DNA from: Actinomycetota bacterium
GTDB lineage: Bacteria > Actinomycetota > Humimicrobiia > Humimicrobiales > Humimicrobiaceae
Direction of reading: 5' to 3'
NCBI GenBank assembly: GCA_023487035.1
Contig: JAMDEN010000006.1
Span: 1 to 33,258 of the forward strand
DNA length: 33,258 nt
Below, piece by piece: positions 3,777 to 25,917 of this stretch; position 1 is the stretch's first letter; every line of letters starts with the position of its first letter. The notes beneath the pieces were generated by a model, which was not told where the DNA came from, ran no database searches, and worked only from the letters and a program-made list of their open reading frames with translations. A program made the translations under genes and the position numbers.

Positions 3777-3827
3777 AAAACATATTTGTCTTGATTTAAA
3801 AAATAAATTTATATTCTTTAAAAAAAA

Positions 3828-3962
3828 CTAAAGTACATTAATAGAATCAATTAGCTCTTTTCCCATCACATGCAAATAAATCTGTGTAGATTCTAAACTT
3901 CTATGACCCATTAAATTTTTAATATTAACAAGGCTTACATCTTTTACCAGTAATCTTGTTGC
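3828..3962 (-). pseudogene. C-terminal remnant of a tyrosine recombinase
   Basis: The minus strand encodes 44 residues plus stop, beginning ATRLLVKDVSLVNIKNLMGH and ending GKELIDSINVL. It aligns almost without gaps to the last 44 residues of the recombinase at 6060-6935. It keeps the late catalytic His (in NLMGHRSLES) and the nucleophile Tyr (in TQIYLHV). The similarity stops at once upstream, where in-frame stop codons appear, so the N-terminal 84 percent of the gene is absent. It lies between repeats R2 and R3 together with an oppositely oriented flavodoxin gene. It cannot act as a recombinase. Confidence 0.9.
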
Positions 3963-4022
3963 TTATTAAGGATTTTGCCTTTAAAATTTTATTTATATTT
4001 TAATAAAGAAAGAGATATTAAA

Positions 4023-6059: not shown

Positions 6060-6935
6060 TTACAGTACCTTTATCGACTCTTCCAACTCTTTACCTGTTA
6101 CGTGCAAATAAATCTGTGTGGATTCCAGACTTTTATGACCCATCAAATTTTTAATATTAACAAGGCTTACATCTTTAGATAGCAGCCTTGTAGCAAAGGT
6201 ATGTCTTAACGTATGAATTGTATAGCCTTTACCAGAAAGTCCTGTAATTTTAATATACCTATCAAATAAATTTTTTAAGCTGTTATGATGTATTCTTTGA
6301 CAGGTATTGCCAATAAATAAGGCATTGTTTTTTAAAGGCAGTCTTTCAGATAAATATTTATCAAGAAGTTCTAGTACCTTATCATGAAGTGGGATTATTC
6401 TTTGATTTTTATTTTTAGATTTTCTTACAATTAAATACTTATTGCCTAAATTAATATCATTCCAGTTAAGATTAATAAGTTCAGTTCGTCTAAGTCCAGT
6501 ATAAGCAAACATTGTAAATATAAGTTTGTCTCTTAAGCTGTATTTTTTAAATTTAGTATAAATATTGTGTTCAGTTGCGCTGAGAAATTTTTCAAGTTCA
6601 ATATCATTAAATACTTTTGGAATTTTAACTCTTTTTCTTGGTGGTCTAATTAATATTGCAGGATTTACCTTTATATAACCTGAATTATGCAGGAACCTAA
6701 AGAAGTGATGTAAAATATTAATCTTATTTGCAACTGAACTTGAAGTGTAACTGTATTTTTGTCTTATATAATTTAAGTAATCTCTTAAGTGGTTCTGGTT
6801 AATTTCATTAAGATCAGTGACTTTTAAATATCCAAATAATCTTTCTAAGTCAGCCCTGTATTTGTGGATTGTAGATTTTGCAGCATCTTTTTCAGTTTGC
6901 AAGTAGTTTAAGAAATAATTGATATATTCATTCAT
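6060..6935 (-). CDS. Tyrosine recombinase (XerC/XerD-like), intact copy
   Basis: A 291-residue site-specific recombinase. Residues 1-85 are a SAM-like core-binding domain and residues 105-285 the catalytic domain. All catalytic residues are visible: Arg149 in AYTGLRRTEL, Lys near 172-174 in RKSKNKNQ, His241 and Arg244 in HTLRHTFATRLL, His267 in LMGHKSLES and the nucleophile Tyr276 in TQIYLHV. The integron-specific insertion of IntI is absent. A sister copy (roughly 85-90 percent identical by eye) lies at 25042-25776, and a C-terminal remnant lies at 3828-3962. A conserved block upstream (6963-7001) may be its promoter or its site. It stands at the border between the repeat-delimited array and the defence island. 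Confidence 0.92.
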   Translation of the reverse strand: MNEYINYFLNYLQTEKDAAKSTIHKYRADLERLFGYLKVTDLNEINQNHLRDYLNYIRQKYSYTSSSVANKINILHHFFRFLHNSGYIKVNPAILIRPPRKRVKIPKVFNDIELEKFLSATEHNIYTKFKKYSLRDKLIFTMFAYTGLRRTELINLNWNDINLGNKYLIVRKSKNKNQRIIPLHDKVLELLDKYLSERLPLKNNALFIGNTCQRIHHNSLKNLFDRYIKITGLSGKGYTIHTLRHTFATRLLSKDVSLVNIKNLMGHKSLESTQIYLHVTGKELEESIKVL

Positions 6936-7001: not shown

Positions 7002-7076
7002 AATATAAAAATATTTATAATTATTTTTAATGGTTTGTGTTTAGAATGAACCTATTCTTTGTTAGACTTAAATATT

Positions 7077-8573: not shown

Positions 8574-8593
8574 ATAGAAATAAAAATTAAAAA

Positions 8594-9715: not shown

Positions 9716-9790
9716 TAAAAATAAATTTCAATAAATCACATCTAATTTATAAATCTTAGCGGAATTTAATAAGAAATTAAAATATTAAAT

Positions 9791-11002: not shown

Positions 11003-11070
11003 TAAAAATTTATATATAATATTATTAATTAGAATTTGTGTAACTGAGCGATAGTTAATTAGAAGAAATT

Positions 11071-12093: not shown

Positions 12094-12153
12094 TAAATAA
12101 TCTTATAAGAAATTTTCAAGAAATGTGAATTGGTTTAATGTTTATATATTTAT

Positions 12154-12206
12154 CTTATTACAAGTTTAAATACATCTTTTAGGTATTTTTAATTTTATAA
12201 TTCAGG
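12154..12206 (+). repeat. Diverged copy (S1) of a second intergenic repeat
   Basis: Reads CTTATTACAAGTTTAAATAC, then ATCTTTTAGGTATTTTTAAT and TTTATAATTCAG. It matches S2 (12963-13027) and S3 (30274-30339) over its first two thirds and then diverges. With S2 it brackets the gene at 12222-12962. Confidence 0.55.
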
Positions 12207-12221
12207 AATCACTAAATTAAA

Positions 12222-12962
12222 ATGCAACATTTAGAACAACTTTTAATTATAGCTAATAGAATTAGAAAAGATACTGAATCAAATTGCAATATTAATAATA
12301 TTGAAAGATATATTACTGGTTTTAATTCATGGACTAGAGATGCTCCAGTGCCAACGCGTCCTATATGGGAAACGGCAATGTTTGATGCAAGTGCTATTGC
12401 TCATGCTTCATATTTCTTGGTTGTACATGGATTTTATGAAGAAGCTTGTTCACTAATTAGGGAAATAATTGATGGCTTTTTAACTAGATTATATTTTGAC
12501 GAAAGGGATAGAATTGGAGAATTAGAAAAGTGGCAACAAAAAGATGGCAGAAGTACAAATGAATATTGGGAGTGGGAAAGTGGGGATGAAGATAATTATC
12601 CAAACTATAAAAAGGATATAAAAAAACTTATGGAGGGAAAAGGTTTAATTAAAAAATATGATAAAAAATATAGTTTATGGAATGATATAGAAGAACTTTT
12701 TAGAAAATTAGGTAAATTTGTACATGGAAGACCAGAGACTAGACATTATGACTTTGCTTCCAGATCAAGCTCAAATATAACTGAATTTAAAAAGAAACAT
12801 TTTGATGAATGGTATGAATACCTAAAATCTGCATATTGTATAATCTCCATACTATCATTATTGCAGTATAAAGAGTTATTTGACAGTAATTATATCAAGG
12901 AATTTAAAGAGCTAGAACCTGAGATATATAAAAAGATAATAGATATTTTAACAACAGTTTAA
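12222..12962 (+). CDS. HEPN/DUF5677-like protein bracketed by repeats
   Basis: A 246-residue helical protein. Residues 50-90 (TAMFDASAIAHASYFLVVHG, then FYEEACSLIREIIDGFLTRL) resemble the DUF5677 or HEPN-like helical pair seen in 7077-8573, and GKFVHGRPETRH near residue 165 gives a conserved His. HEPN RNases carry an RxxxxH motif; here the spacing is not a clean match, so RNase activity is only a possibility. It has no ribosome binding site. It lies between repeat copies S1 and S2, and S2 starts directly after its stop codon, giving it the shape of a one-gene mobile unit. Its neighbours are defence-type genes. Confidence 0.6.
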   Translation: MQHLEQLLIIANRIRKDTESNCNINNIERYITGFNSWTRDAPVPTRPIWETAMFDASAIAHASYFLVVHGFYEEACSLIREIIDGFLTRLYFDERDRIGELEKWQQKDGRSTNEYWEWESGDEDNYPNYKKDIKKLMEGKGLIKKYDKKYSLWNDIEELFRKLGKFVHGRPETRHYDFASRSSSNITEFKKKHFDEWYEYLKSAYCIISILSLLQYKELFDSNYIKEFKELEPEIYKKIIDILTTV

Positions 12963-13027
12963 TTATTACAACCTTAAACACATCTTTTAAGAATTTTTAG
13001 CTTATAACTCGGCTTATAGACTAACTC
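12963..13027 (+). repeat. Second intergenic repeat, copy S2
   Basis: Starts at the base after the stop codon of 12222-12962. It reads TTATTACAACCTTAAACACA, then TCTTTTAAGAATTTTTAGCT and TATAACTCGGCTTATAGACT ahead of AACTC. It is nearly identical to 30274-30339, 17 kb away. The TATAACTCGGCTTATA part is an imperfect hairpin followed by GACTAA; a similar TATAACCAGTGTTATAAGAC occurs at about 13214-13233. Confidence 0.75.
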
Positions 13028-13294
13028 CACAATGCTAAAGCCAAGCTTTTAAAAAGCAGCCTTTTAAAAAAACCTAAAACCCTTTAGTTAATAAAAGTTT
13101 TAGTATAAAAATAAGCTTAAAAATGCTTATTTTTATTACTATTTATTATATTCCAAAATTGTATTAATAAAAAGTATTTTTTTTAAAAAAAATAATATTT
13201 TTTATTTAGGCTATAACCAGTGTTATAAGACTAAAAATTCTATAAATTTTAAAATGATATTTTATAAAATAATTATACTTCTTAAATTTATATA
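13028..13294. other. Convergent intergenic spacer
   Basis: Together with repeat S2 this makes a 332-base stretch without a gene. It holds the terminator at 13107-13134, oligo-A/T runs and a TATAAC/GTTATA hairpin at about 13214-13229 that resembles the end of repeat S2. I see no further gene on either strand. Confidence 0.5.
13107..13134. terminator. Bidirectional intrinsic terminator
   Basis: A perfect 10-bp stem AAAAATAAGC/GCTTATTTTT with an 8-base loop, with A runs on one side and T runs on the other. It lies between the plus-strand gene ending at 12962 and the minus-strand helicase ending at 13295, and can serve both. Confidence 0.75.
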
Positions 13295-14602
13295 TTACTC
13301 AATGATGATAATTTCATTTTCCTCAAACCATCCATTTGCTAAAGCTGTGCTTCTTACCGCATTTACATTACCTGTATATGCAATAAGAGCCAAGCTCTTT
13401 TGTGCCCGAGTGCATGCAACATAAAATAGTCTTTTTGTTCGGGAAATGCTTGTATCTTTTCCTTCTTGTTCATTTCTGAGATCGGTATCTGACTTTTCTT
13501 TAGCTCCAAATAATTTCTCGTAACTAAATAAAAAACCTTTTGCTTCTTGATCGTCCATTATTACTGTAACCCTTGGAAATTCAAGTCCCTTAACTCCTTG
13601 ATGAGTTTCAAATGGAGTTTCTCCATTAATATATGCGTTATAGTTCTCAATTTCATCAAATGAAACGGAAAATGCAGTTTTTAATGCTTGAATTCTTTCA
13701 TTTGTTTCTACTTGAGCTTGAGTTGTTAAAACTCCTTGTAGATTATCTGGAATTTTAAATAATCCACTCTTTTCAGTTGTGATTAATGTATCTATGCATG
13801 ACGGCTTTTGTCCATTATTCCATAATGCACATAAATCATTAACAGCTTTTTTAGCAGAAGCAATAATTTTTGTTTGATTCTCATTGCTATTAATAAAAGA
13901 TTTTTTATCTAATAGCGGTGAATATTGACGAACAATTTTTGCGACCTCAAAATCTTGCTGTGCCTGATAAGCTTTTACAAGTGGTAAAATTATTTTTGTA
14001 AAAAGAGAGATTTCCGGAAGTGTACCATCAAGGATTCCAGTTTTGAATGAATCTATCTCATATAAGGGTGAAAACAAATTAATAAAACCCAATCTTCTTC
14101 CTGCCATATGATGTTCGAGTATAAGGCTTTTACATTCATTAGGAATAATCCATTTATCATCATCAGTTAAGTCAGCCATAATTTCTGGCACACGTTTTTC
14201 AATAGAATGTTTATCTGCACTATTATGCACTATAAATAAGCGAATAATTCCTAATTCTGCATCTGAACGACTTTCCTGATGTTTACCATCTACATTTTCT
14301 CGAATTGCATTTGCTAATGTTACAATACGTTTAGCACTTCGGTGATTCATAACTTTGGTAAATTTTTCCCAATCATCTGGTATGCAAAGAGCTAAATTGT
14401 CTTTTCCATCTGTATAAATCTTTTGCATAGTATCACAAAACAATCCAATGATTATTTTGTCTTTATGGTTTTTATGTAATTCAAGAAGTGCATCAATTAA
14501 TTCTTTTTTAGTATCTTGACTTTCATCAATCAAAAGAATAGGAAATCTACTTATAAATATTTTTTGCATTGTTTCACTATTCATTATAAATTCGGATCCC
14601 AT
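13295..14602 (-). CDS. UvrD-like helicase, C-terminal part (Gabija GajB-like), separated by a frameshift
   Basis: A 435-residue open frame holding the later motifs of a superfamily 1 UvrD/PcrA helicase: motif II LLIDESQDT (residues 24-31), motif III-like GLFCDTMQKIY, motif V THQGVKGLEFPRVTVIMDD and motif VI RLFYVACTRA. The upstream codons of the same frame are also protein-like (FTYNPNGENLGYDSLSHSEV) and stay open to about base 14718. There the N-terminal frame (14638-15147) meets it. One base separates the two frames, so the real gene is 13295-15147, about 617 residues once joined. With the ATPase/TOPRIM gene upstream it resembles Gabija GajB. The break may be a mutation, a sequencing error or a -1 slip on CAAAATT. 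Confidence 0.8.
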   Translation of the reverse strand: MGSEFIMNSETMQKIFISRFPILLIDESQDTKKELIDALLELHKNHKDKIIIGLFCDTMQKIYTDGKDNLALCIPDDWEKFTKVMNHRSAKRIVTLANAIRENVDGKHQESRSDAELGIIRLFIVHNSADKHSIEKRVPEIMADLTDDDKWIIPNECKSLILEHHMAGRRLGFINLFSPLYEIDSFKTGILDGTLPEISLFTKIILPLVKAYQAQQDFEVAKIVRQYSPLLDKKSFINSNENQTKIIASAKKAVNDLCALWNNGQKPSCIDTLITTEKSGLFKIPDNLQGVLTTQAQVETNERIQALKTAFSVSFDEIENYNAYINGETPFETHQGVKGLEFPRVTVIMDDQEAKGFLFSYEKLFGAKEKSDTDLRNEQEGKDTSISRTKRLFYVACTRAQKSLALIAYTGNVNAVRSTALANGWFEENEIIIIE

Positions 14603-14637
14603 TTTTATTACTTCTGAATGACTAAGAGAATCATAGC

Positions 14638-15147
14638 CTAAATTTTCACCATTTGGGTTATAAGTAAATCTTTTAAAAGTTTCAATTTTACTAAGTCGAT
14701 TTTTCTTAGATTCAATTTTGTTCGTTCTATAGAAGCATTTCCAGACCTACCCCTCAACTGCTGCTCTTCTAACTCATTGATTTCAGAGACAATACTTTTT
14801 TTAATCCATTCTTTTAAATCACGCTGTTGGTTTTTTATAAGCTCCCATAAAAAGCTATGTATTGTTGATACAGAAAAAATATGTTTATAATCAACCCTAC
14901 TTAAGATTTCATTACAAGCTGCATTTGTATATGTAATTACAGCAATTTGTTTGGAATATGCGGCAAGTTCAGAACCTATAGAGTCGTCAAGGAAAGAAAG
15001 CGTTTTAACTAAACTTCTTGTTTTTCCTGAGCCTGCACCTGCAAATGTGAAAAAACTTTTTAAATTATCCTTATTGAAACACGTTTTAATTTCATCATCT
15101 ATATGATCGTCAATATGATTGTCGTCTATTATTATTTGTCTGTCCAT
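14638..15147 (-). CDS. UvrD-like helicase, N-terminal part (Gabija GajB-like), truncated by a frameshift
   Basis: A 169-residue frame with Walker A FTFAGAGSGKTRSLVKTL (Gly37 to Thr43) and motif Ia AVITYTNAACNEI, followed by FSVSTIHSFLW, as in the start of GajB/UvrD helicases. True similarity ends at about residue 143 (RSGNASIERTK). The last 26 residues are out-of-frame sequence. In the -1 frame the protein continues IESKKNRLSKIETFKRFTYN into the fragment at 13295-14602. The start is firm: CAGGAGGATTAAT precedes the ATG, and it lies 17 bases after the stop of the OLD-type ATPase. The shift point lies at about 14715-14720, in an A/T run. Without frame restoration the protein lacks motifs II to VI and cannot be a helicase. 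Confidence 0.8.
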   Translation of the reverse strand: MDRQIIIDDNHIDDHIDDEIKTCFNKDNLKSFFTFAGAGSGKTRSLVKTLSFLDDSIGSELAAYSKQIAVITYTNAACNEILSRVDYKHIFSVSTIHSFLWELIKNQQRDLKEWIKKSIVSEINELEEQQLRGRSGNASIERTKLNLRKIDLVKLKLLKDLLITQMVKI

Positions 15148-15164
15148 ATTAATCCTCCTGATGA

Positions 15165-17360
15165 TTAATCATTGAGTTTAAGCTGTTCTTGTAGCCAATT
15201 TAAGCCTTCTATAATATATGGTGGTATATTTATTTCATCAGGATCTATAGAGTAGATTAAATCCAATGCAAAACCTGCTTTCAGAGAATCATTGCCTCTA
15301 AGTAAGTAATATATAGATTTGTGTAAATCATAAAAGTCTTGAGATTGTATAATTAAGTCATGTGCTTTTTCAATAATCCCTTCTCCATTAGTCTTTGATA
15401 AAAGTTCTAAATTAGAATATATTAAACAATCTTCAAATGTACTTGATAAAGCTTCTATATTTTCTTTATCTTTGTAACTTATAAGAATGGGAGTTTGGTA
15501 AGCGATTCTTATAGAATAATTATATGGAGTAGAACATTTAAATTCTTTATTTTCATAAGAAATATCAAGTAATTTGTCATACTCTTTTTCTTTTATCAGC
15601 CATTCTGTAATTGCATAATTACAGCTTATCAAATTCTTCTTCCTCTCTGGGTATGAAGATTCATGATGACCAGAGGGTAAAGCTGAATCGATGTCAGTGA
15701 TAATAAGAGTAGTTAAACATAATTTTTCGATAAGAGGCTTTAACCTATGAGAATGTCTACCATTAATACTTAAAATTGTGATATAGCGTTCATTCAACTG
15801 ATGATATTTACTCTTAATAAAATGGGGGATAATCATGTTCTCTGATGAACCTTCTACTAAAATAACTGCATCTGCAAAAAATAAATCACAATGTGTAGTT
15901 TGAAGGTATCGAGTAACAAACCTATCAGTAGTAATACCTTCGCCAAATACATCTGATAGATTTATAACTTTAGCTGTTGATATATTACATTCATCTGACT
16001 CAGGAAGCCTTTTGAAATATCTCAAATCAGCAAAATTTACTTCTCTTGCAATGTGACTTGAATGAGAGCTTATTACCAATTGAGTAGAAAAGCTTGGATT
16101 TTCTTTTAGGAACTCATGGTTTGTCAAAACACTAAATACTTTTTTTATAAACACTTGTTGCACCTGAATGTGTAGATGGGCTTCTGGTTCTTCAAGTAAA
16201 ATTAAATGCAAAGGTGCTATTCGTTTCCCAGAAAGCTCTTGTTCTTTTTTAGCCTTACCGACCTGCATCCAATCATCTCTAAATCCAATAAGTAAAAAAA
16301 CCATTGAGATCAAATTTTGATAACCCAATCCATTATATTTTTCGGGCAACTTCAAATCATCATCATCGTTTTTTGTTAATGAATATTGAACTGCAGAATC
16401 ATGTTTTAACGCATCTGTCGTACTGACTTTTGTTGCAATTGTGATCTTAGGGTCACTTATACCTGGATATCCAAGAGTCTCCAACTCTTTAATAGCAGAT
16501 TTAAATTTTTCTGCTAAGTTTTGGTTGAAGGCTTTTTTTGCATCTTCCATAACCTGTAAAGTTTCGAGATCTTCTGATGTTGGTGATTTTTCTGGATCAA
16601 GATGTTTATCATAGTAATTTCGAAGTTGTGATGAAAGACTACTGCAGTAATTGTTTTCGGTAATACTAGATGAAGATTCCGGATCGGAAAAGCCACGTTG
16701 AGCTTCGATCATGTCAATTTTGATGAGTCCTTTCAATGGATCTTGCTCAAAACATTCCATATCATAAGATGTTTTTTGTAGTGATTCATTATTCAATTTT
16801 TCGGGATCAAGTATATATGCCTTTAATGTAAATAAAGACGAGAATCTCTTTTCAAGAAAATCACAAAGATTCTTTGGCCATAATGATAATGAAGAGTTAG
16901 CCCTTATAGATTCAGTTTCTCTTGCAGCAGCATAAGATTCTCTGTAATCTACAAATATTTTTGAAATATCTTCAGGTTGAAATATAAATCTTACACCTAA
17001 ATTTCCACCTTTCCAATCAAGAGTGGGTATCATATGTGATACATATTGTATTTCATTGTCTGCTACATTAAGCCAAATATCTAATGTTGGTAGGATGTTT
17101 TCCCAGTTCTCGAGGGTATTTGGCATTATACATTCTTCCTTCTCCCATTCACTTCCAATAGATTTTATTATCAAATGATTAGATAATGTAAAATCATTAA
17201 AAACAAATTTTCGCTTTGCTAAAAATTTACCTAATGCATCCATTGCTGATGTCTTGCCACTATTGTTTGCTCCAACAAAAAGAGTGGTTGTATCACTGAA
17301 ATCTATCCGACATTGTTTCAATTTTCGGAAGTTTTGAAGATCGATGAATGTAATTCTCAT
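15165..17360 (-). CDS. OLD-family ATPase/TOPRIM nuclease (Gabija GajA-like)
   Basis: A 731-residue protein with an ABC-type ATPase and a C-terminal TOPRIM nuclease domain. Visible are Walker A VGANNSGKTSAM (residues 30-37), the signature-like KYNGLGYQNLISMVFLLIGF (341-360), Walker B LHLILLEEPEAHLH (385-397) and the SSHSSH switch (431-436). TOPRIM acidic residues are Glu503 (AVILVEGSSENMIIP) and Asp556/Asp558 (LIITDIDSALPSG). Followed by a UvrD-like helicase, this is the arrangement of Gabija and other class 2 OLD systems. At 731 residues it is longer than the prototype GajA, so call it Gabija-like. The start overlaps the stop of the upstream HTH gene by ATGA, with AAGGAGAC as its ribosome binding site. 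Confidence 0.88.
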   Translation of the reverse strand: MRITFIDLQNFRKLKQCRIDFSDTTTLFVGANNSGKTSAMDALGKFLAKRKFVFNDFTLSNHLIIKSIGSEWEKEECIMPNTLENWENILPTLDIWLNVADNEIQYVSHMIPTLDWKGGNLGVRFIFQPEDISKIFVDYRESYAAARETESIRANSSLSLWPKNLCDFLEKRFSSLFTLKAYILDPEKLNNESLQKTSYDMECFEQDPLKGLIKIDMIEAQRGFSDPESSSSITENNYCSSLSSQLRNYYDKHLDPEKSPTSEDLETLQVMEDAKKAFNQNLAEKFKSAIKELETLGYPGISDPKITIATKVSTTDALKHDSAVQYSLTKNDDDDLKLPEKYNGLGYQNLISMVFLLIGFRDDWMQVGKAKKEQELSGKRIAPLHLILLEEPEAHLHIQVQQVFIKKVFSVLTNHEFLKENPSFSTQLVISSHSSHIAREVNFADLRYFKRLPESDECNISTAKVINLSDVFGEGITTDRFVTRYLQTTHCDLFFADAVILVEGSSENMIIPHFIKSKYHQLNERYITILSINGRHSHRLKPLIEKLCLTTLIITDIDSALPSGHHESSYPERKKNLISCNYAITEWLIKEKEYDKLLDISYENKEFKCSTPYNYSIRIAYQTPILISYKDKENIEALSSTFEDCLIYSNLELLSKTNGEGIIEKAHDLIIQSQDFYDLHKSIYYLLRGNDSLKAGFALDLIYSIDPDEINIPPYIIEGLNWLQEQLKLND

Positions 17361-17536
17361 ACTTGTCTCCTTTTAATAACTCTTTTGTCATTGGGTTTTA
17401 GCGATATTTTTGGTATCGCCCATGATTTTCCAAGACGCTGTACTCCTTCAATACGGCTCAACTTACAAAGTACTTGAACTCTACGTTCTGAAATGCCCCA
17501 TTTTTCAGCTGCTTCTTTAGCTGTTATGTACTCCAT
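17357..17536 (-). CDS. Small HTH (excisionase/MerR-like) DNA-binding protein
   Basis: A 59-residue protein of the helix-turn-helix type found in excisionases: ITAKEAAEKWGISERRVQVL, then CKLSRIEGVQRLGKSWAIPK with the wing-like strand, and a basic tail (KRVIKRRQV). I chose the ATG at 17536 over the TTG at 17542, because TAAGG lies six bases before it. Its stop overlaps the ATPase start (ATGA), so it is the first gene of the Gabija-like operon and most likely its regulator. An 18-base near-palindrome about 42 bases upstream is a candidate operator. Confidence 0.8.
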   Translation of the reverse strand: MEYITAKEAAEKWGISERRVQVLCKLSRIEGVQRLGKSWAIPKISLKPNDKRVIKRRQV

Positions 17537-17577
17537 ATGCAACCTTACTAAATTGTTAATTCTTCACGGATATAGTT

Positions 17578-17595
17578 TATGCGTAATTACGAATA
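17578..17595. promoter_or_regulatory. Near-perfect palindrome upstream of the HTH-ATPase-helicase operon
   Basis: TATGCGTAATTACGAATA is symmetrical except for one pair, with a perfect CGTAATTACG centre. It lies 42 bases upstream of the first gene of the minus-strand operon, a natural place for an operator. Binding by the small HTH protein is inference. Confidence 0.45.
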
Positions 17596-17808
17596 ATAGC
17601 AAAGTAATTTGCTTAGAATTTTAACACCAAAAGTTGAAAAAATAATAATTCAAATTGAAAGTTATTTTGGAAACAATCCAGATAAAATTTTTATATTAGC
17701 CATCAAAGAAAGTGGCATACTTGATAATTACTCTGTGGTAATAGTGGTGACTTTTAATAAAAAAGAGGCAATCTTTGGGATTATTTATAGTCTGTTTAGC
17801 TACAGATT

Positions 17809-18024
17809 TTATAAGAATTCAAACATTTTAGTCATCTTTATATTTAAAGCCTTTGCAATTTTCTCTATATTTCTTAAAGTAATATTTTTCTCTGCTCTTT
17901 CAATCATGCCAATATAAGTTCGATGAACACCAGCTTTTTCAGCCAGAGCTTCTTGAGAGATTTTTCTTTTCAATCTCTCTTCTCTTACTTTATTTCCAAA
18001 TTTAATAAGAATATCTTCTTTCAA
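17809..18024 (-). CDS. Controller (C-protein-like) XRE-family HTH regulator, copy 2
   Basis: A 71-residue HTH protein paralogous to 904-1119. The C-protein-like core is ALAEKAGVHRTYIGMIERAE followed by KNITLRNIEKIAKALNIKMT. The start is a TTG at 18024, in register with the ATG of copy 1 (MKEDILIKFGNKVREERLKR). Its promoter region carries the same 23-base operator block as copy 1 and the same promoter spacing, so both likely read or cross-read the same site. It lies upstream of the Gabija-like operon on the same strand but is separated from it by 270 bases with a different control region. It may control itself or the divergent membrane gene at 18191. No methyltransferase is nearby. Confidence 0.85.
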   Translation of the reverse strand: MKEDILIKFGNKVREERLKRKISQEALAEKAGVHRTYIGMIERAEKNITLRNIEKIAKALNIKMTKMFEFL

Positions 18025-18056
18025 TGATGTAAATAGAATAAAAATAATATGATAAA

Positions 18057-18100
18057 AGTATAGGGTTATGCTAACTTTAGTTCTACATACTATAGTTAGC
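18057..18100 (-). promoter_or_regulatory. Promoter and C-box-like operator of regulator copy 2
   Basis: The block 18078-18100 is identical to 1149-1171. On the minus strand TAGAAC (18080-18085) and TATACT (18057-18062) are 17 bases apart, as at copy 1. Here the block is also framed by GCTAACT (18070-18076) and its inverse AGTTAGC (18094-18100), giving a longer dyad. Confidence 0.65.
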
Positions 18101-18190
18101 TTTTTTATAAATTATTTAGTAAAATATTAAGACTATATCTGAATGTTTATTTCATATTTGTTTTAAAAATATATTTAAAAAGGAGGCTAA

Positions 18191-18667
18191 ATGAAGTATT
18201 TTAGAATTTTTATTGCTATTTTATTCTTTTTTATCTCTTCAGCTATACCTATCTTGTATCAAGTAACACTTCCCCAGAATATGATAAATTTAACAAGCTC
18301 TTTCTTTTTTTATTTTTTATTACGTTACCTGCCGATAATACTTACAACTCTTTCATCAATAGTCTTTCTTGTTTATTTATTAAAATTTAGTTGGAACAGT
18401 AATCTGTACTGGAGCAACTTCTTTTTAGCTTTTACAATTAATTTGTCCATCACTCTTTTAATTGATATTCCAATTAGAATTACAGAACATATTAAGTGGA
18501 TAAATATCCTTGATAGAGATAAAGGTTCTGATTTCTTTTATGAGATTACAGCAGGAAGGATATTTGGCTGGTTTTTTACTTTTATAGCAGTAGTAGGGTT
18601 TATTTGCCTATTTTTGTATTTCAGAAACAAATATAAAAGCAAAAATATTGCCAAAAAGCTAGCTTGA
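18191..18667 (+). CDS. Small four-helix membrane protein of unknown function
   Basis: A 158-residue hydrophobic protein with four predicted membrane segments (about residues 4-24, 42-66, 74-94 and 127-147), a short loop with RITEHIKWINILDRDKGSDF between the third and fourth, and a basic C-terminal tail (RNKYKSKNIAKKLA), which should be cytoplasmic. AAAAAGGAGG precedes the ATG, so the start is firm. I recognise no family. It is divergent from the controller-type regulator copy 2, and the operator block lies about 90 bases upstream of it, so co-regulation is possible. Toxin or immunity roles cannot be inferred from what is visible. Confidence 0.75.
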   Translation: MKYFRIFIAILFFFISSAIPILYQVTLPQNMINLTSSFFFYFLLRYLPIILTTLSSIVFLVYLLKFSWNSNLYWSNFFLAFTINLSITLLIDIPIRITEHIKWINILDRDKGSDFFYEITAGRIFGWFFTFIAVVGFICLFLYFRNKYKSKNIAKKLA

Positions 18668-18947
18668 AACACTTTGATAACAATAAATAAACCAAAGATA
18701 TGTCATTAAATTTGTCCAAATTCGTCGTTGTAATATTTTATAATATACTGTTAATATAGTATTTTTATAGGTATATTATAGAATTCTCTTGTATAAAATT
18801 GCTCGAAACATGTAATTTTTACTGCATCTCTCCTTCTGTATCTCTCTAAGAATTCACTTGAAATGGAAAATATTATTTTAAAAAGTAAAATCCTTTTTAT
18901 GAAATGCAAAAGACTATTTATGAAAATCCAAAAAAGAGGTAACTAAC
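18668..18947. other. AT-rich spacer
   Basis: About 280 bases between the membrane protein gene and a decayed small gene. I see TA-rich runs around 18735-18780 and a GAGGTAAC ribosome binding site for the decayed gene, and no protein-like frame on either strand. Confidence 0.4.
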
Positions 18948-19130
18948 ATGGATGAGATTACATCTTTAACAGATGAAGAAATTAAATAATACCAGAAGGT
19001 TTACAAGGAGTGTTTTAATAAGGAAATAAACAAACAGGAAGCACTTGAGTAGGGTCTTAGATTAGTAAATTTAATGAGGCTATTGATAGAGATTGATTGT
19101 CAGAATAAGAATTCCGTTAATCTCTCATAA
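18948..19130 (+). pseudogene. Decayed small gene with two in-frame stops
   Basis: AAAGAGGTAACTAAC precedes an ATG whose frame reads MDEITSLTDEEIK, then TAA (18987-18989), YQKVYKECFNKEINKQEALE, then TAG (19050-19052), and GLRLVNLMRLLIEIDCQNKN before a final stop at 19130. The protein-like sequence on all three pieces shows one former gene of about 60 residues. The helix-rich pattern suggests a small regulatory or antitoxin-like protein, but the family is not recognised. Both internal stops are one base from Gln or Lys codons (for example CAG to TAG), which fits point mutation. Confidence 0.65.
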
Positions 19131-19137
19131 ATTTATT

Positions 19138-19785
19138 CTATAAAAGAATATATTTAAAAAGATCTTCTATTGGATTAATTATATAAGTATCAATTTTATC
19201 TTCGTCTATACGGCTTAGCCAATCGTTAGATAATATAAAATATTGTTTACCAGATTTTTTGTGTTCTTTTGGTATACCGGACCAATTATTTGATGTCATT
19301 ATTAATAAGAAGGATTTAGCATGAGGGAACATTTTTTTTATTACTAAATCTCTTTTTATAAAATCATCTTCCCACTTATTCCTATTCCAACCAAGTTGAG
19401 TTTTACATTCAATTATTAATACTATTTTATCTTCTTTCCAAATCGAAATATCTGGTCGAATTGCTAAACCTTTTAATTTAATTAATTTCTCAGAGAAAGC
19501 TTTAATATCTATATTATTTTTTTCAAGGAATAATTTAAGATAAAATATTATTGTTTCAACAAAGAAATCCGAAGCTGATTGAGCATATTTTTTATTTAAA
19601 AAACTTTTAATTTTATATTGTGCTTCATAATAAGCTTTCATTCTCAGCAAAATTGCCTTTGTTATATCTTTATTTTCTAAGGAGATAGGGATGCTTGATT
19701 TAATTTCATCATATAGTTTTATTAATTGTTTATAATTCTTGAAAAAATTTTTACTATATTTCTTTTCTAATTCAATTAATGTCAT
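19138..19785 (-). CDS. PD-(D/E)XK nuclease-like protein
   Basis: A 215-residue protein whose second half is a PD-(D/E)XK nuclease core. Visible are Glu77 on the helix ASDFFVETIIFYLKLF, Asp112 in RPDISIWKEDK and Glu126-x-Lys128 in IVLIIECKTQLGWNR, then KWEDDFIKRDLVIKKMF. The first 75 residues are helical and Lys-rich. It lies 33 bases downstream of a gene with a second nuclease-like core on the same strand, so the pair is likely co-transcribed. There is no methyltransferase. It might be the second subunit of a restriction enzyme or a two-gene defence system. Nuclease fold likely, role inferred. Confidence 0.75.
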   Translation of the reverse strand: MTLIELEKKYSKNFFKNYKQLIKLYDEIKSSIPISLENKDITKAILLRMKAYYEAQYKIKSFLNKKYAQSASDFFVETIIFYLKLFLEKNNIDIKAFSEKLIKLKGLAIRPDISIWKEDKIVLIIECKTQLGWNRNKWEDDFIKRDLVIKKMFPHAKSFLLIMTSNNWSGIPKEHKKSGKQYFILSNDWLSRIDEDKIDTYIINPIEDLFKYILL

Positions 19786-19818
19786 TAATTTATTACATAA
19801 GTTTTTATTTTTAGAGAA

Positions 19819-20979
19819 CTAATCAAAAATTTTTGAAACCTCTGCTGCACCGAAATACTTTTCAAGGTCATTATAAGTCATATATTCGCATACTTCATAT
19901 AATCCTGAAAAATCAAATGTTCTTCTTGCAATTTGGTTTTCAAATAATTTAATTCTTGATTTTGGTACTATAACCGTAGCCTTTGTTATAGGAAAATCAA
20001 TAATAATATCATTGAGTCTTAAAAGTCCTGAATAAACTGATGTTGTGTGCTCAATTTCAAAAAATCTTACAGGATTGGCTGTATTTTTCTTAAACCAAAT
20101 TACATCTACAAATTTTGCAATCGCAAGTGTCTTGGGTTGTGTAAATGAAGGAAGTTCTTTTAAAGTATTTTCATAAAAGGAAAAACCATTATATGATTTA
20201 TTACTGTCATTTTGTGCGATCCATATATCGTATCCCTTATTAATTCCAATTTTTATAAGGCAATATTGCATTTTTGTATGTACATCTTCAGTTTCCTCTT
20301 TTTCTTCTTCAATTTCTTCGATATCTTTAATTTCCTTTTCAACTTTTTTATCTATCTCACCTTTTTCAGACAAATACCCCACATTTATACAGAACAACAA
20401 ATTATCAACTTGAGCTAAACTATCTAAACCAGTTATTTCTTTTATATTTAAAAGTGCTTGGTTGATTTTTAAATAAAAATTTGACTTTTGTTCACCAGCA
20501 CTTTTTATAGGATAAGCACCTAATATTTTAAGCGCACCATCTATTTGTCTATTCCATTGGCCATATTTATCAGGGAAGTAATTTGTTAAAAATAGTGTTA
20601 TAAAATTTATTCCTATTCCTCTAATAAAGAAATCAGATTCTTGATTTTCTGTAACTTGTTTTAACTTTTCATTTGGTTCAATTGATCTGTCTGATAAAAA
20701 TTTAAAAAGCTTGGATAATTTTTCAATACCAGAGCCTAATACTGAATTTATATATAATTTTGGGCCAAAGCCGAATTTGCGATAAAAATTCGAGAAGTCT
20801 TCTATAGTTACTATTCCTTTATCTATTTTATTTAAAATATCACTTATAAGTTCCTTATAATAATCCCACCAGTATTTTCCCTCAAACAAAAAACCATCTT
20901 TAACACCATACTGCTCCATAATGCTGTCATGTTTGTCTTGGTAGGTTTTTAAATATCTTAATAAGAGTTCCTTATCCAT
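19819..20979 (-). CDS. Restriction-endonuclease-like protein with coiled-coil linker
   Basis: A 386-residue protein in two parts. Residues 1-205 form a helical N-terminal domain with NFYRKFGFGPKLYINSVLGS and YFPDKYGQWNRQIDGALKIL. A highly charged coiled-coil linker (about 207-235, mostly Glu and Lys) leads into a C-terminal domain with FVDVIWF (Asp292) and PVRFFEIEHTTSVYSGLLRL (Glu308, Glu310), a PD-(D/E)XK-like arrangement in which His replaces the usual Lys. The start is the ATG at 20979, with AAAGAGAG before it. An upstream TTG at 20994 lies inside that ribosome binding site. It is the first gene of an operon with 19138-19785. The substrate is not known. Confidence 0.7.
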   Translation of the reverse strand: MDKELLLRYLKTYQDKHDSIMEQYGVKDGFLFEGKYWWDYYKELISDILNKIDKGIVTIEDFSNFYRKFGFGPKLYINSVLGSGIEKLSKLFKFLSDRSIEPNEKLKQVTENQESDFFIRGIGINFITLFLTNYFPDKYGQWNRQIDGALKILGAYPIKSAGEQKSNFYLKINQALLNIKEITGLDSLAQVDNLLFCINVGYLSEKGEIDKKVEKEIKDIEEIEEEKEETEDVHTKMQYCLIKIGINKGYDIWIAQNDSNKSYNGFSFYENTLKELPSFTQPKTLAIAKFVDVIWFKKNTANPVRFFEIEHTTSVYSGLLRLNDIIIDFPITKATVIVPKSRIKLFENQIARRTFDFSGLYEVCEYMTYNDLEKYFGAAEVSKIFD

Positions 20980-21175
20980 ATTACTCTCTTTCAATATATT
21001 TTATTGATACTTAATTTTATCATATTAAAAGCAGGTTAGGTTAAAATAAAAATATTTAAAATAAATCTTATTTTTTATATTATAGATATTATTTTTATAA
21101 GATTTATTATATAATAGTATTATAAATATTGTATATTAAAATCAATAATATTATCATATTTATATAATATAAATT

Positions 21176-21586
21176 ATGAAAAGAGTTATAGAAATTTTTA
21201 GGACAAGAGAAGAACTTGAAAAATTAGTAAACCTTCCCAATAAGAAATATATATCCGGAATAAGAAACAGGGCAATACTTGCAGTGCTGTGTTATGCAGG
21301 TTTACGAGTGGGGGAGATTATTAGTCTAAGACCTTCTGATGTAAAAGAAAATGACAGTGTTATAAGGGTAAATAATGCTAAGTGGAAAAGCTCAAGAATG
21401 GTGTATGTACCAAGTTATTTATTTCACTATATAAATAAATGGTTAGAAGTAAAACCAGAAAGCAAGTATTTATTTTGTTCGAGATATGGAAAAAAATTAT
21501 TACCAGATTATTTACAGAAGATGGTAAAAAGATATGCTGGAAAAATTGACCCTGATAAAAATATTCATCCCCATTGTTTGCGTCAT
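21176..21586 (+). pseudogene. Tyrosine recombinase, catalytic domain only, cut by the RIT element
   Basis: The frame encodes 137 residues of a recombinase catalytic domain: RNRAILAVLCYAGLRVGEII with the first catalytic Arg44, a Lys-containing hairpin, and IHPHCLRH with His133 and Arg136. It breaks at the His137 codon, and the next ten codons (YVECYIMVSA, ending at 21619) are the terminal repeat of the inserted element. The late His and the nucleophile Tyr are missing, so it is inactive. It has no core-binding domain and no clear ribosome binding site, so it may have been a short integrase. The other half of this gene is not on the far side of the element. There, a different recombinase is cut at the same motif. 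Confidence 0.88.
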
Positions 21587-21671
21587 TATGTAGAGTGCTA
21601 CATTATGGTGAGTGCTTAAGTAATAGTGCGATAACATAAGCCTTTTATCTTTAATCACTCACCATAATATT
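21584..21671 (+). repeat. Left inverted terminal repeat of the RIT element
   Basis: Identical over 88 bases to the reverse complement of 24957-25044. It contains TGTAGAGTGCTACA (5-bp arms) at the outer edge and an inner pair ATTATGGTGAGTG / CACTCACCATAAT with about 40 bases between, which look like recombinase-binding arms. Confidence 0.9.
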
Positions 21672-21684
21672 ATCCCGGACTATT

Positions 21685-22713
21685 TTACTTACAAAGGTTT
21701 TGAAGCCAATACATCAGATCTTCATTTTCTTCCCAATTTGGCATATCTACTGGACTCAAATCCGTATATGCACTTTCAATTGCTTTTCTTTTCATTTCAG
21801 TATCTGCTCTTGCATAGATCTCTGTTGTAACTACATTACAATGTCCTAAAAAGTCTCTGATATAAATAAGATTAATTCCTGCCTGCAGTAGCAACATAGC
21901 TTTCGAGTGCCTCAACACATGCGGGGTAACGGCAAAACCGGTATTAAATTTTGTATTGTTCTTTGCCATTTGGACATATTTATCAAGTATATGTGAAACT
22001 CCCCATCTGGAAAGCTTTTTATGTTGTTGATTGAAAAAGACTGGTGCATCTTGTGCTGCAATACCCCAGTTATATTTTTTGTGTTCTTCAAGGTATGCTG
22101 CCAGAATATCTTTTGTTTTACCGATAATTGGAACATGACGTACTTTACTGCCTTTTCCATGTAAGGCAACAACTGCAGGAGAAGACAGTCTGATATCAGA
22201 AACTTTTAAGTCAATTATTTCGGATACTCTTGCAGCGCTATCATACATTAAAACAAGTAAAATTAAATCCCTTCGGCCCTGCTTAGAGCTTGTATCTGGT
22301 TGACTAAAAAGGATCTTTAATTCATCAGATCTTAGGTAAAATACTTGAGGTTTTGGTTTTCTCTTTAGTGGTATTGTAAGTATTTTATGAAATTCAAACA
22401 AATTATCCGGACTTTCTTTTTGCACATACCTAAAGAATGCATGGATGGCTGAAAGCCTTTGATTTCTTGTTGATAGGCAGCACTTGCGTTTTTTTTCTAT
22501 CCATTCAAGAAACTCTGTAACTATCTTTCGTGTCAGCAAATTTAAAGTTATATTTTGCGATTTTAATCCTTTAGTTTCACTGCAAAATATTAAAAATAGT
22601 TTAAATGTATCCCTGTAAGATGCAATCGTATTGGTGCTTAAATTTTTTTGCCCTGGAAGATACTTTGAAAAAAATTGTGAAAGATAGAATGCAAAATCAT
22701 TTGTATTCTTCAT
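21685..22713 (-). CDS. RIT element tyrosine recombinase, third gene
   Basis: A 342-residue recombinase. The core-binding domain covers residues 1-115 (NTIASYRDTFKLFLIFCSET, then STRNQRLSAIHAFFRYV) and the catalytic domain follows: Arg in YDSAARVSEIIDL, Lys in LHGKGSKVRHVP, TPHVLRHSKAMLL with the His-x-x-Arg pair, FLGHCNVVTTEIYAR with the late His and the nucleophile Tyr. A GGAGGGGG ribosome binding site lies before the ATG at 22713, and the start overlaps the second gene by 17 bases, so translation is coupled. It ends 14 bases from the left terminal repeat. In RIT elements all three recombinases are thought to be needed for movement. Confidence 0.9.
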   Translation of the reverse strand: MKNTNDFAFYLSQFFSKYLPGQKNLSTNTIASYRDTFKLFLIFCSETKGLKSQNITLNLLTRKIVTEFLEWIEKKRKCCLSTRNQRLSAIHAFFRYVQKESPDNLFEFHKILTIPLKRKPKPQVFYLRSDELKILFSQPDTSSKQGRRDLILLVLMYDSAARVSEIIDLKVSDIRLSSPAVVALHGKGSKVRHVPIIGKTKDILAAYLEEHKKYNWGIAAQDAPVFFNQQHKKLSRWGVSHILDKYVQMAKNNTKFNTGFAVTPHVLRHSKAMLLLQAGINLIYIRDFLGHCNVVTTEIYARADTEMKRKAIESAYTDLSPVDMPNWEENEDLMYWLQNLCK

Positions 22714-23677
22714 ATATAACCCCCTCCGGAATTAAATAGTCATATAAAGCTTCGGCTTTAGCTATAATATCAGGATAAAGATCAGCTGTAAGACGCAGGT
22801 AATACTGGGTGCCCCTAAAATCAGTATGCCCCATATATGCAGCAAGATAAGGCATAAGATTTGTAAGCTCTTTTCCTGAAAGCACCCATTTTTTAAGACA
22901 ATGACAACAGTAGCTGTGACGCAGATCATGGATTCTTGGTCCATTGTATGTGTGCGAGATATCAGCCACCAGAAGATAATCGCGAAATCTGCAGTATACG
23001 GTACTTTTATCAAGTCTATAGCCAGCAGGACTAATAAAAAAGTAGGTGGAACTTCCACTAAAAGTATGTAACTGAGTAAATAACTTTTGAAACCTTTCAG
23101 TAAGGCTATCTGCAATAGGCACAAGCCTGTCCCTGTTGTTCTTTGCATGCAGGATAGTTAAAGTTCCGGTTTTAAAATCAATGTCTTTTAACTGCAAATT
23201 TAATGCTTCCGAGAGTCGGAGTCCAGAGCCATAAAGCAGGCGAAAAAGTACTGGATCTACAGTGTTGCGATTGGATTGGATAGATTTCGGATATCCGTCA
23301 ATTGCTTTAAAGAACCGTCTTAACTGTTCTTTTGAGAAGATATATGGAACATAAGAGCAGCGTTTGGCTGGTGCTGATTTAATTGGCGGCACATATACTG
23401 AATATCCCTGCCCTATTAGGTATTCTGAAAAACTATTTAGAAGGATTTCTTTTTTGTAGTGCGTTGATTGCTTTTCATAGCTTGTGCCGTATATAAATGC
23501 CTCTGTCATTTGTTTTGTAAATTTTACGCCTGTGTATCCGTTTCTGTAGTAATAATCGTCAAATCTTTGTAGTTCCCTGTCTTGTTTTTCAAATTTAAAT
23601 CCAGTCATCTTTTTTTGGCTTAGATAACACTGCAAAAGTTCTTTCATATCACTTTTCCATTGATAGTGCATTTTCAT
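22697..23677 (-). CDS. RIT element tyrosine recombinase, second gene
   Basis: A 326-residue recombinase starting at the ATG at 23677, which overlaps the stop of the first gene (ATGA). AGGAGG lies ten bases upstream; a longer frame from 23710 is less likely. The catalytic residues are visible: Arg in LLYGSGLRLSEALNLQ, Lys in LHAKNNRDRLVPI, the RIHDLRHSYCCHCL box, then YMGHTDFRGTQYYLRLT with the late His and the nucleophile Tyr. The N-terminal part (MKELLQCYLSQKKMTGFKF) is the core-binding domain. The KKWVLSGKELTNLMPYLA insertion before the late His is typical of this subgroup. Confidence 0.9.
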   Translation of the reverse strand: MKMHYQWKSDMKELLQCYLSQKKMTGFKFEKQDRELQRFDDYYYRNGYTGVKFTKQMTEAFIYGTSYEKQSTHYKKEILLNSFSEYLIGQGYSVYVPPIKSAPAKRCSYVPYIFSKEQLRRFFKAIDGYPKSIQSNRNTVDPVLFRLLYGSGLRLSEALNLQLKDIDFKTGTLTILHAKNNRDRLVPIADSLTERFQKLFTQLHTFSGSSTYFFISPAGYRLDKSTVYCRFRDYLLVADISHTYNGPRIHDLRHSYCCHCLKKWVLSGKELTNLMPYLAAYMGHTDFRGTQYYLRLTADLYPDIIAKAEALYDYLIPEGVIYEEYK

Positions 23678-24915
23678 GAGCCAAACACCTCCTCTGGATC
23701 CAGTGCACACTTTTTGAGCCCATCCAGATCAATTTTTAGATAAATACTTGTTGTATTAATGCTTTGATGCCCTAAAACTTCTGAAATAACAGGAAGTGGC
23801 GCTTCGGCTTCCAGCATGTTTCTTGCAAGCGTACTCCTTAAGGAATGCAGCCCACAATGAACATCGAGTGGTATTTCAAGCCCAGCTTTAATCATGTAAC
23901 GGTGCAGTTCACGTTGGAAACATTCATTTTCGCCAAATGAATCATAAGGTGCTCTGTGCCGCACAAAGACCGCATCACACTTTGTTTCTGGCCGTCCATT
24001 TTTCAAATAATCAATAATTGCCCAGCCAATATCATCCAGTAGTGGCAGTTTATGAGGCTGCTTTGTTTTCTGCATCGTAAGGGAAATTGTTTTGCTGCTC
24101 CAGTTTAAGTTGTGAAATTTTAGGCCTCGAATATCGCTTACACGCAGTCCAAGACGTACTACAAGAAGCAGGATTGCATAATCTCTTTTTCCTTTTTTAT
24201 CACCCCTATCTACAGCTTCAAGAAGTTTACTTACATCCCGTCTCTTCCAGCAGTAAGGAATAAATGCATTTCGTATGATTCTCACTTTTGGAAGAGACTT
24301 ACTGATATCTTCGTCCATGAATCCATGGCCGTATAAAAAGTTAAGATAATTTCTTAAGACATAAATAATTGTAGAAATATATTTAGGTTTGCAGTTACTG
24401 TAGCGCCAAAGAAAAGTAGTTAGATGCTTTACATTAATTGATTTTGAACAGTTAACATTGCAGGTATCTAAAAATGTCAAAAACTTATTTACCTTCTCGA
24501 TATTACATTTAATGGTTGCTCTGGCATAACCCCTGTATATAAGTTCTTCCTGAAAGGTTGAGTATTCCTCTTCAAACTGTGCAGGGCAACAGTAAGGGCA
24601 AATTCTTGGACGCATCTTAAACTTAACAGTTTTTGTTTGAATATAATCCAGAAGTATTTGAAGTGGTTTTGTTACAGTATTAATTTTTCGATTACCAGCA
24701 CCATAAAATCCATCAAGCCTGTATCCTGTTTTAAAAAACACATATTCAATGCAGGCTTTTTCATTAAAAGAAGAAATATTATTTGTCTGCATATGTTTTA
24801 GGATATCACTGTAGATAGCGCTGTAAGAGCCTAGTGCACTATTTGAATATTTCTGGCATTCCAGCTCTCTTAAGACCGACTTCATAGAATCTTTGAGTAT
24901 CTGTATTTCATTCAT
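23674..24915 (-). CDS. RIT element tyrosine recombinase, first gene
   Basis: A 413-residue recombinase, the longest of the trio. An extra N-terminal region (1-120) ends in RPRICPYCCPAQFEEEY, a Cys-rich piece that may bind metal. It is followed by the core-binding domain and the catalytic domain: Arg in VVRLGLRVSDIRGLK, Lys in QKTKQPHKLPL, GLHSLRSTLARNML and LGHQSINTTSIYLKID with the late His and the nucleophile Tyr. It is transcribed first from near the right terminal repeat, and its stop overlaps the second gene. The trio shares little sequence beyond catalytic residues, as expected for three different recombinase subfamilies. Confidence 0.9.
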   Translation of the reverse strand: MNEIQILKDSMKSVLRELECQKYSNSALGSYSAIYSDILKHMQTNNISSFNEKACIEYVFFKTGYRLDGFYGAGNRKINTVTKPLQILLDYIQTKTVKFKMRPRICPYCCPAQFEEEYSTFQEELIYRGYARATIKCNIEKVNKFLTFLDTCNVNCSKSINVKHLTTFLWRYSNCKPKYISTIIYVLRNYLNFLYGHGFMDEDISKSLPKVRIIRNAFIPYCWKRRDVSKLLEAVDRGDKKGKRDYAILLLVVRLGLRVSDIRGLKFHNLNWSSKTISLTMQKTKQPHKLPLLDDIGWAIIDYLKNGRPETKCDAVFVRHRAPYDSFGENECFQRELHRYMIKAGLEIPLDVHCGLHSLRSTLARNMLEAEAPLPVISEVLGHQSINTTSIYLKIDLDGLKKCALDPEEVFGS

Positions 24916-24956
24916 AATAAACCCCTTTCGTAATAATATTGGAAAGTTTATTATGA

Positions 24957-25044
24957 AATATTATGGTGAGTGATTAAAGATAAAAGGCTTATGTTATCGC
25001 ACTATTACTTAAGCACTCACCATAATGTAGCACTCTACATAATG
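24957..25044 (-). repeat. Right inverted terminal repeat of the RIT element
   Basis: Reverse complement of 21584-21671 without a visible mismatch. It supplies the ten-residue tail and stop codon of the cut recombinase at 25042-25776, exactly as the left repeat does for the other fragment. Confidence 0.9.
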
Positions 25045-25776
25045 CCTTAATGTATGAATTGTAAAGCCTTTACCAGAAAGTCCTGAAATCTTAACATATC
25101 TGTCAAATAAATTTTTTAAGCTATTATGATGAATCCTATTATTCGTATTGCCAGTAAATAATGCGTTATTTATTAAGGGTAGTCTTTCAGATAAATATTT
25201 ATCAAGCAGTTCTATGACCTTATTATGTAATGGTATTATCCTTTGATTTTTATTTTTAGATTTTCTTACTATTAAATATTTATTTCCTAAATTAATATCA
25301 TTCCAGTTAAGATTAATAAGTTCAGTTCGTCTTAGTCCAGTATATGCAAACATTGTAAATATTAATTTGTCTCTTAAGCCGTATTTTTTATATTTAGTAT
25401 AGATATTATGCTCTGGTGCTTTTAAAAATTTTTCAAGTTCAATGTCGTTAAATACTTTAGGAATTTTTACCTTTTTCCTTGGTGGTCTAATTAAGATAGC
25501 TGGATTAACTTTTATATAACCAGAAGCATGAAGAAACCTAAAGAAGTGATGAAGAATATTTATTTTATTTGCAATTGAACTTGAAGTGTAATTATAAGTT
25601 TGTCTTATATGATTTAAATAATCCCTTAGATGATTCTGACTGATTTCATTAATATCAGTAATTTGTAGATATTCAAATAACCTTTCTAAATCAGCTCTGT
25701 ATTTATGAATTGTATTATTAGCAGCGTCTTTTTCTGTTTGAAGATAATTTAAGAAGTATTCTATGAATTTATCCAT
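25042..25776 (-). pseudogene. Tyrosine recombinase, sister copy of 6060-6935, cut by the RIT element
   Basis: The first 245 residues match the intact recombinase at 6060-6935 closely from MDKFIEYFLNYLQTEKDAAN to TIHTLRH, including the first catalytic Arg149, the Lys region RKSKNKNQ, His241 and Arg244. At His245 the frame enters the RIT terminal repeat and reads ten foreign codons to a stop at 25009. The late His and the nucleophile Tyr are gone, and their codons are not found on the other side of the element. The upstream conserved block (25803-25843) is preserved, so the truncated gene may still be transcribed. A dominant-negative DNA-binding product is possible but speculative. Confidence 0.9.
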
Positions 25777-25802
25777 ATCAAAATTATATTTATTTTAATT
25801 AT

Positions 25803-25843
25803 GCGAGAGGATAGTAGTATGATGGAGGAGAATCAAGGGTTTT
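25803..25843 (-). promoter_or_regulatory. Conserved block upstream of the cut recombinase
   Basis: Matches 6963-7001 with a few substitutions and two inserted bases. On the minus strand TTGATT (25831-25836) is followed after 17 bases by TATCCT (25808-25813). The match is limited to this block and the coding region, so it is probably the promoter or a recombinase site. Confidence 0.5.
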
Positions 25844-25917
25844 TATGGAAATTATCCCTTTTTTAAATTATAATCTTGCTTTATTTTATTTTTAATTATC
25901 GATAATCTGATAAAAAA

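Follow-up and report, generated by a model that had tools for sequence, protein, structure and literature searches.

The window analysed here, a stretch of 33,258 nucleotides, carries a complete RIT element (ritA, ritB and ritC between exact 88-bp terminal repeats) whose two ends adjoin the N-terminal halves of two different tyrosine recombinase (YR) genes, each cut at the codons of the catalytic Arg-His. Comparison with related elements indicates that it probably belongs to a RIT lineage that targets this catalytic Arg-His word, and that the second core of one element probably attacked a second target to give the arrangement in the window.

RIT (recombinase in trio) elements consist of three overlapping YR genes in the order A-B-C, span about 3.5 kb and have terminal inverted repeats; a palindrome overlapping the inverted repeat has been noted, and mobility was called undemonstrated (PMC3414803). 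Sources for the family are Van Houdt 2009/2012 and Ricker 2013, with C. metallidurans CH34. The source genome of the window is a metagenome-assembled genome (MAG) of 2.23 Mb in 174 contigs and is 79.7% complete.

A complete RIT element between two truncated recombinase genes

The element is 3461 bp long including both 88-bp terminal inverted repeats (Table 1). The CA that opens the 88-nt 'repeat' is part of the targets' His codons and not of the element. The three rit genes lie on one strand and overlap by 4 bp (A/B) and 17 bp (B/C), and no fourth conserved gene (ginD/srap) accompanies them between the repeats. All three products match PF00589, in RitA from residue 226 onwards. RIT elements encode three distinct recombinase types, the longest being RitA, which has an additional N-terminal domain, and RitC being extended at its C-terminus; the products here agree with these types by size and order only. 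All three types have an R-H-Y catalytic motif. In the window the box reads HDLRH in RitB and HVLRH in RitC; in RitA it reads HSLRS, with the Arg kept and the following His replaced by Ser.

Table 1. Coordinates of the element, its targets and related sequences in the window
Feature	Position	Strand	Remark
N-half of a short YR, cut at HCLRH	21176..21585	+	PF00589 4-136 of 172
6-bp target word GCGTCA, Arg-His codons of the left gene	21580..21585	+	direct side, palindrome absent
Left 88-bp terminal inverted repeat	21584..21671	+	first 2 bases CA = target's His codon
RIT body, half-site H1 to H1'	21586..25042	-	H1-N7-H2 at both ends and exact terminal inverted repeats
Left half-sites H1 TTATGTAGAG, N7 TGCTACA, H2 TTATGGTGAG	21586..21612	+	TTATGTAGAG starts at 21586 (plus)
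ritC, 342 aa	21685..22713	-	own HVLRH box
ritB, 326 aa	22697..23677	-	ATG start; GTG start at 23710 also open
ritA, 413 aa	23674..24915	-	
Right 88-bp terminal inverted repeat	24957..25044	-	100% complementary to left repeat
Right half-sites H1'-N7-H2'	25016..25042	-	sequence identical to left end; TTATGTAGAG starts at 25042 (minus)
6-bp target word AAGGCA, Arg-His codons of the right gene	25043..25048	-	direct side, palindrome absent
N-half of a XerD-like YR, cut at HTLRH	25043..25776	-	PF00589 7-136 of 172
Intact paralogue of the right-hand YR	6060..6935	-	reads HTLRHTFATRLL...; 84% nt identity to right gene
Candidate C-terminal remnant of the right-hand family, residues 247-291	3831..3965	-	begins at cut point; no adjoining palindrome

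The initial annotation had described a RIT element between two different recombinases, both cut at the same Leu-Arg-His, and this description holds: the repeats are exact, the two genes end at HCLRH and HTLRH, and they are 32% identical over their common part. The ten shared codons that it read after each cut are likewise there and derive from the repeat, the left gene being translated as ...IHPHCLRH-YVECYIMVSA-stop (plus strand) and the right gene as ...FTIHTLRH-YVECYIMVSA-stop (minus strand). In both genes the PF00589 match ends at model position 135-136 of 172. The left gene is of a short type of about 190-200 aa, and relatives with 184-206 aa are intact. Both truncated genes keep the Arg and the adjacent His and have lost the later His/Trp box and the catalytic Tyr, and, judged from this anatomy only, both are presumably dead through the loss of the Tyr.

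The further statement that the missing C-terminal halves do not lie on the opposite sides stands in so far as N-halves occupy both ends; it is qualified by a candidate C-terminal piece of the right-hand family elsewhere in the window (Table 1). This piece was the sole loose YR C-terminal fragment detected with PF00589 in the source assembly, and the same search found no C-half of the left gene. We considered it as the lost half of the right gene but left it unassigned, as its strand fits a simple split rather than an inversion and a palindrome is absent. It begins within about one residue of the position at which this family is cut by the RIT and may be an old scar or a chance product. No further copy of the terminal repeat was present anywhere in the source assembly (174 contigs, 79.7% complete).

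One XerD-like integrase family has at least four copies or fragments (window 6060-6935, 25043-25846 and 3801-3965; G000:C104:5092-5625). Conserved DNA extends beyond the ORF, over about 70 bp upstream and, downstream, to a word resembling GAAATTTCGAACC. This suggests a mobile element with a solitary integrase. Between both recombinase copies, window 7059-21000 holds a gene run that by eye resembles a defence or accessory island and includes an ATP-binding protein, a UvrD-like helicase and a restriction-like ORF. A second, different RIT is found in the source genome (C51). It splits an IS21 istB gene exactly at the Walker A motif GSTG[TGK]THI, and neither half of the gene is missing.

Architecture of RIT insertions

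RitB relatives were gathered from 80 GTDB contigs, 8 viral-collection contigs, plasmids and relatives. A class-level search of 40 genomes yielded no closer relative, and a phylum-level search added one relative (42%). The ends and the adjoining 6-bp words (n6) could be read in 57 loci. The ends share a common plan, in which a 10-bp half-site H1 (TTATGNNNAG) is followed by 7 bp and a second half-site, H2.

A normal insert reads host-[n6]-H1...RIT...H1'-[n6]-20-bp palindrome-[n6]-host and so has one direct end and one palindrome end. On the direct side the host is joined to H1 through n6, and on the palindrome side it leads into n6, then the 20-bp palindrome, an inverted n6 and finally H1. In dozens of loci the host ORF is back in frame after the RIT, the palindrome and one n6 are taken out, and n6 codes for conserved residues of the interrupted gene. 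Pfam agreed with the identity of the interrupted gene for most genes long enough to score and gave no match for it in L134, L137 and L138; the C5 methyltransferase, the amidoligase-like gene, the REP transposase, some DDE boxes and the Tyr box of L138 were identified by motif reading alone. One contig that is perfectly symmetric around its RIT (L089) was handled as a probable assembly artefact. The many independent insertions and the restored empty sites would, on this comparative basis, speak for mobility of RITs.

Nearly all related loci have a palindrome, and the window RIT lacks one at both ends, which marks the window copy as rearranged. A palindrome-like site in contig C94 of the source assembly was discarded when its translation placed it in a hisF-like gene where the contig folds back at its end. 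This fold-back, at the start of the contig (L144 1-380, G000:C94), indicates that the MAG contains local assembly errors.

Target motifs follow the RIT tree

The interrupted codons fall into recurrent classes. Targets were the Gly-Lys codons of IstB Walker A in nine loci and the Asp-Asp/Glu codons of IstB Walker B in three, the Gly-Gly of PQGG in group II intron reverse transcriptases (RTs) in six to seven, the catalytic Tyr box of YRs in six, and the Lys-Gly next to the catalytic Glu of DDE transposases in two; the Arg-His of YRs was the target, with restoration of the ORF, in L024 and L060. A few inserts lie elsewhere, in C5 methyltransferase-like, CHAP-lysozyme and YpsA genes, which likewise have conserved motifs. 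When seven target labels, of which those of L058, L062, L088 and L132 rest on n6 alone, were placed on a maximum-likelihood tree of 62 RitB proteins, 15 changes were required, compared with a mean of 38.6 for shuffled labels, and 0 of 200 shuffles gave a value as low. The comparison shows each RIT clade with its own target motif.

Two further groups of interrupted genes were observed. An amidoligase-like gene is interrupted in L170, L171 and L111 and by the outer RIT of L169, mostly on phage-like contigs, and in the first three the cut coincides with a G-[IL]-H-I-H motif or lies close to it. The cut in C5 cytosine methyltransferase-like genes is near the QRR motif in L137 and L173, and in L176 it is at PCQ, a catalytic motif.

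The clade of the window element at the YR Arg-His box

In the RitB tree the window RIT groups with L058, L059, L060, L050 and L061 in a clade that has full support; the close relatives L053 and L169 were not included in that tree. L060 lies inside a YR gene at HT[LRH]SFATHLLD with both halves retained. L059 is inserted within the ritC of another RIT, and L169, from a viral-collection contig and with a RitB 54% identical, is likewise inside a ritC, at ITPHC[LRH]SKAM. L053 (G033), whose end sequences are the same as those of the window element, is flanked by a YR N-half on the direct side and by a YR C-half where the palindrome lies, and these two halves apparently come from different genes. For L058 only the n6 TCGCCA is available. 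The inserts of L050 and L061 are not in YR genes. The more distant L024 also occupies the YR Arg-His box, at HS[LRH]SFATHLLE. Pfam backs the YR halves at the same-clade loci.

The proposal that the element chooses the H-x-x-R-H box of YR genes as its target is therefore borne out by five of the seven clade members with readable flanks (the window, L053, L059, L060 and L169, the other two being L050 and L061). The possibility raised against it, that insertions of this subgroup fall mostly in unrelated sequence, is the opposite of what these loci show. The nested RIT-in-ritC arrangements are located at 3424-3824 in L059 and at about 4290-4650 in L169, and the outer RIT of L059 itself lies within a transposase-like gene at RWSIEVF.

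Orientation of the palindrome and the same-half products

The palindrome faced the C-half in nine of nine Walker A inserts (RIT orientation 6:3) and in six of six YR-Tyr inserts (RIT orientation 3:3), and the N-half in seven of seven RT inserts. At the YR Arg-His box it was directed toward the C-half in L024, L060, L053, L059 and L169. As shown by comparison of these inserts, the palindrome always faces a fixed half of a given target, with the RIT body lying either way in the Walker A and YR-Tyr classes. The window, with N-halves at both ends and no palindrome, has exactly two direct sides.

Other loci have the same kind of symmetry. In L063, from a Gracilibacillus isolate, the RIT lies between two istB N-halves with istA upstream on each side and no palindrome, and in L119 it lies between two IstA C-halves, again with no palindrome. 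The genome of L063 also contains the perfect palindrome TTATAGAAAGCTTTCTATAA between two IstB C-halves, without a RIT. Lone palindromes between two YR C-halves that start at RH occur in L221 (G022, a family member) and in L226 (G002, a congener). In G022, two further sites (L220 and L222, on C60 and C178) have the same non-YR flank, near another YR gene, adjoining a RIT-type palindrome, and the far side of each palindrome is a different YR C-half. No C-palindrome-C counterpart of the window was found in its own genome (assembly 79.7% complete, 174 contigs). Because the N- and C-halves in the Gracilibacillus genome could not be paired as mutual partners, C-palindrome-C and N-RIT-N are treated here as product types rather than proven reciprocal pairs.

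Origin of the arrangement in the window

In the proposed history, the excised element would be a circle, itself inferred, whose two-core junction reads H1'-n6-palindrome-n6-H1. One core would integrate, and the other would stay behind as a complete site, H1'-n6-P (P, palindrome), able to attack a second target. This second exchange would divide the insert into an N-RIT-N product without a palindrome, as in the window, and a C-palindrome-C product without a RIT, and both target genes would lose their catalytic Tyr. Searched for on this basis, the second product type was found in the L063 genome, L221 and L226. The order of events, and any advantage to be gained from disabling the cut YRs, are likewise inferred.

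The initial annotation had favoured a different course, in which each YR gene received its own RIT copy and homologous recombination between the terminal repeats of the two copies deleted the intervening DNA together with both C-halves. The exact 88-bp repeats would be a suitable substrate, and the assembly contains neither a second repeat copy nor the C-half of the left gene. Recombination between copies probably also happens, since the palindromes at both ends of L099 and L096 need two copies and cannot be explained by a single element. However, if two complete inserts recombined homologously, the C-halves would be separated by a RIT instead of by a palindrome on its own, and RIT-free C-palindrome-C arrangements are present in three genomes, one of which also has N-RIT-N and one of which belongs to the genus of the window. 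Two-copy deletion is therefore an unlikely origin of the window and not the best account of it; a conservative reaction of one element with two targets would fit both the palindrome architecture and the RIT-free C-palindrome-C better.

Less likely still is an assembly artefact, in which a short-read assembler joined the direct sides of two ordinary inserts through the repeat. The source genome is a MAG, and perfectly symmetric contigs (L089) and the fold-back at the start of C94 show that such errors occur, but the assembly holds a single copy of the element, the palindrome side that would be expected twice for two ordinary inserts was not found in it, and the isolate locus L063 has equal architecture with flanks of 4.7 and 5.9 kb. 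It would be a most improbable coincidence if RITs inserted anywhere in mobile-element-rich regions and YR fragments flanked this one by chance: although the mobile genes that contain published RITs are varied (PMC2864759, PMC3414803) and some few RITs surveyed here lie in non-recombinase genes, the same two codons are cut in both genes, motif targeting is clade-specific on the tree (15 versus 38.6 changes), and the ORF is restored in frame across dozens of loci.

Discussion

For the window we prefer the reaction of one element with two targets, and we lean towards a more general reading. RIT lineages may be parasites specialised on other mobile elements, each lineage adapted to the codons of a single catalytic motif, with a two-core circle that disables two targets and leaves N-RIT-N and C-palindrome-C behind, and the clade of the window would hit YRs, including the ritC of other RITs. 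Inteins and homing introns also occupy conserved active-site codons, which offer a stable target. They splice out and spare the host gene, whereas the RIT has no splicing and its host gene is truncated. Integrative elements at tRNA genes and similar sites use a tyrosine recombinase at a conserved short DNA word and usually rebuild their target; a RIT, in contrast, destroys its target, which is a catalytic motif encoded by another mobile element.

Published RIT insertions are in radC (twice), an IS66 tnpA and a Tn6049-type transposase gene (PMC2864759, PMC3414803), and in these descriptions the palindrome is not a defining feature of the family but was noted near the ends of some elements only. 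An active-site-codon targeting rule was not found in the literature searched, which excludes Ricker 2013 (Plasmid 70:226); with the same exclusion, clade-specific targets, n6-palindrome-n6, N-RIT-N and C-palindrome-C were absent from the RIT literature covered. A comparison table published in 2023 gives RIT specificity as not formally tested (PMC10214605). According to the part of that source considered here, GInt/SE elements have three integrases and a fourth gene; they resemble RITs in bringing several tyrosine recombinases together, in the carry-over of 6 bp of flank and in target specificity, and differ in their genomic-island size, the fourth gene and other targets, and no palindrome side is described in that part.

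The target of a RIT is predictable from its clade and readable from 6 bp, so that the rule is testable at once. The palindrome gives a reason for the appearance of reciprocal junctions, and clade-specific target recognition by three recombinases merits biochemical study. These results point to a class of mobile elements in which insertion is directed systematically at the transposition enzymes of rival elements, kin included, and presumably abolishes the function of these enzymes.
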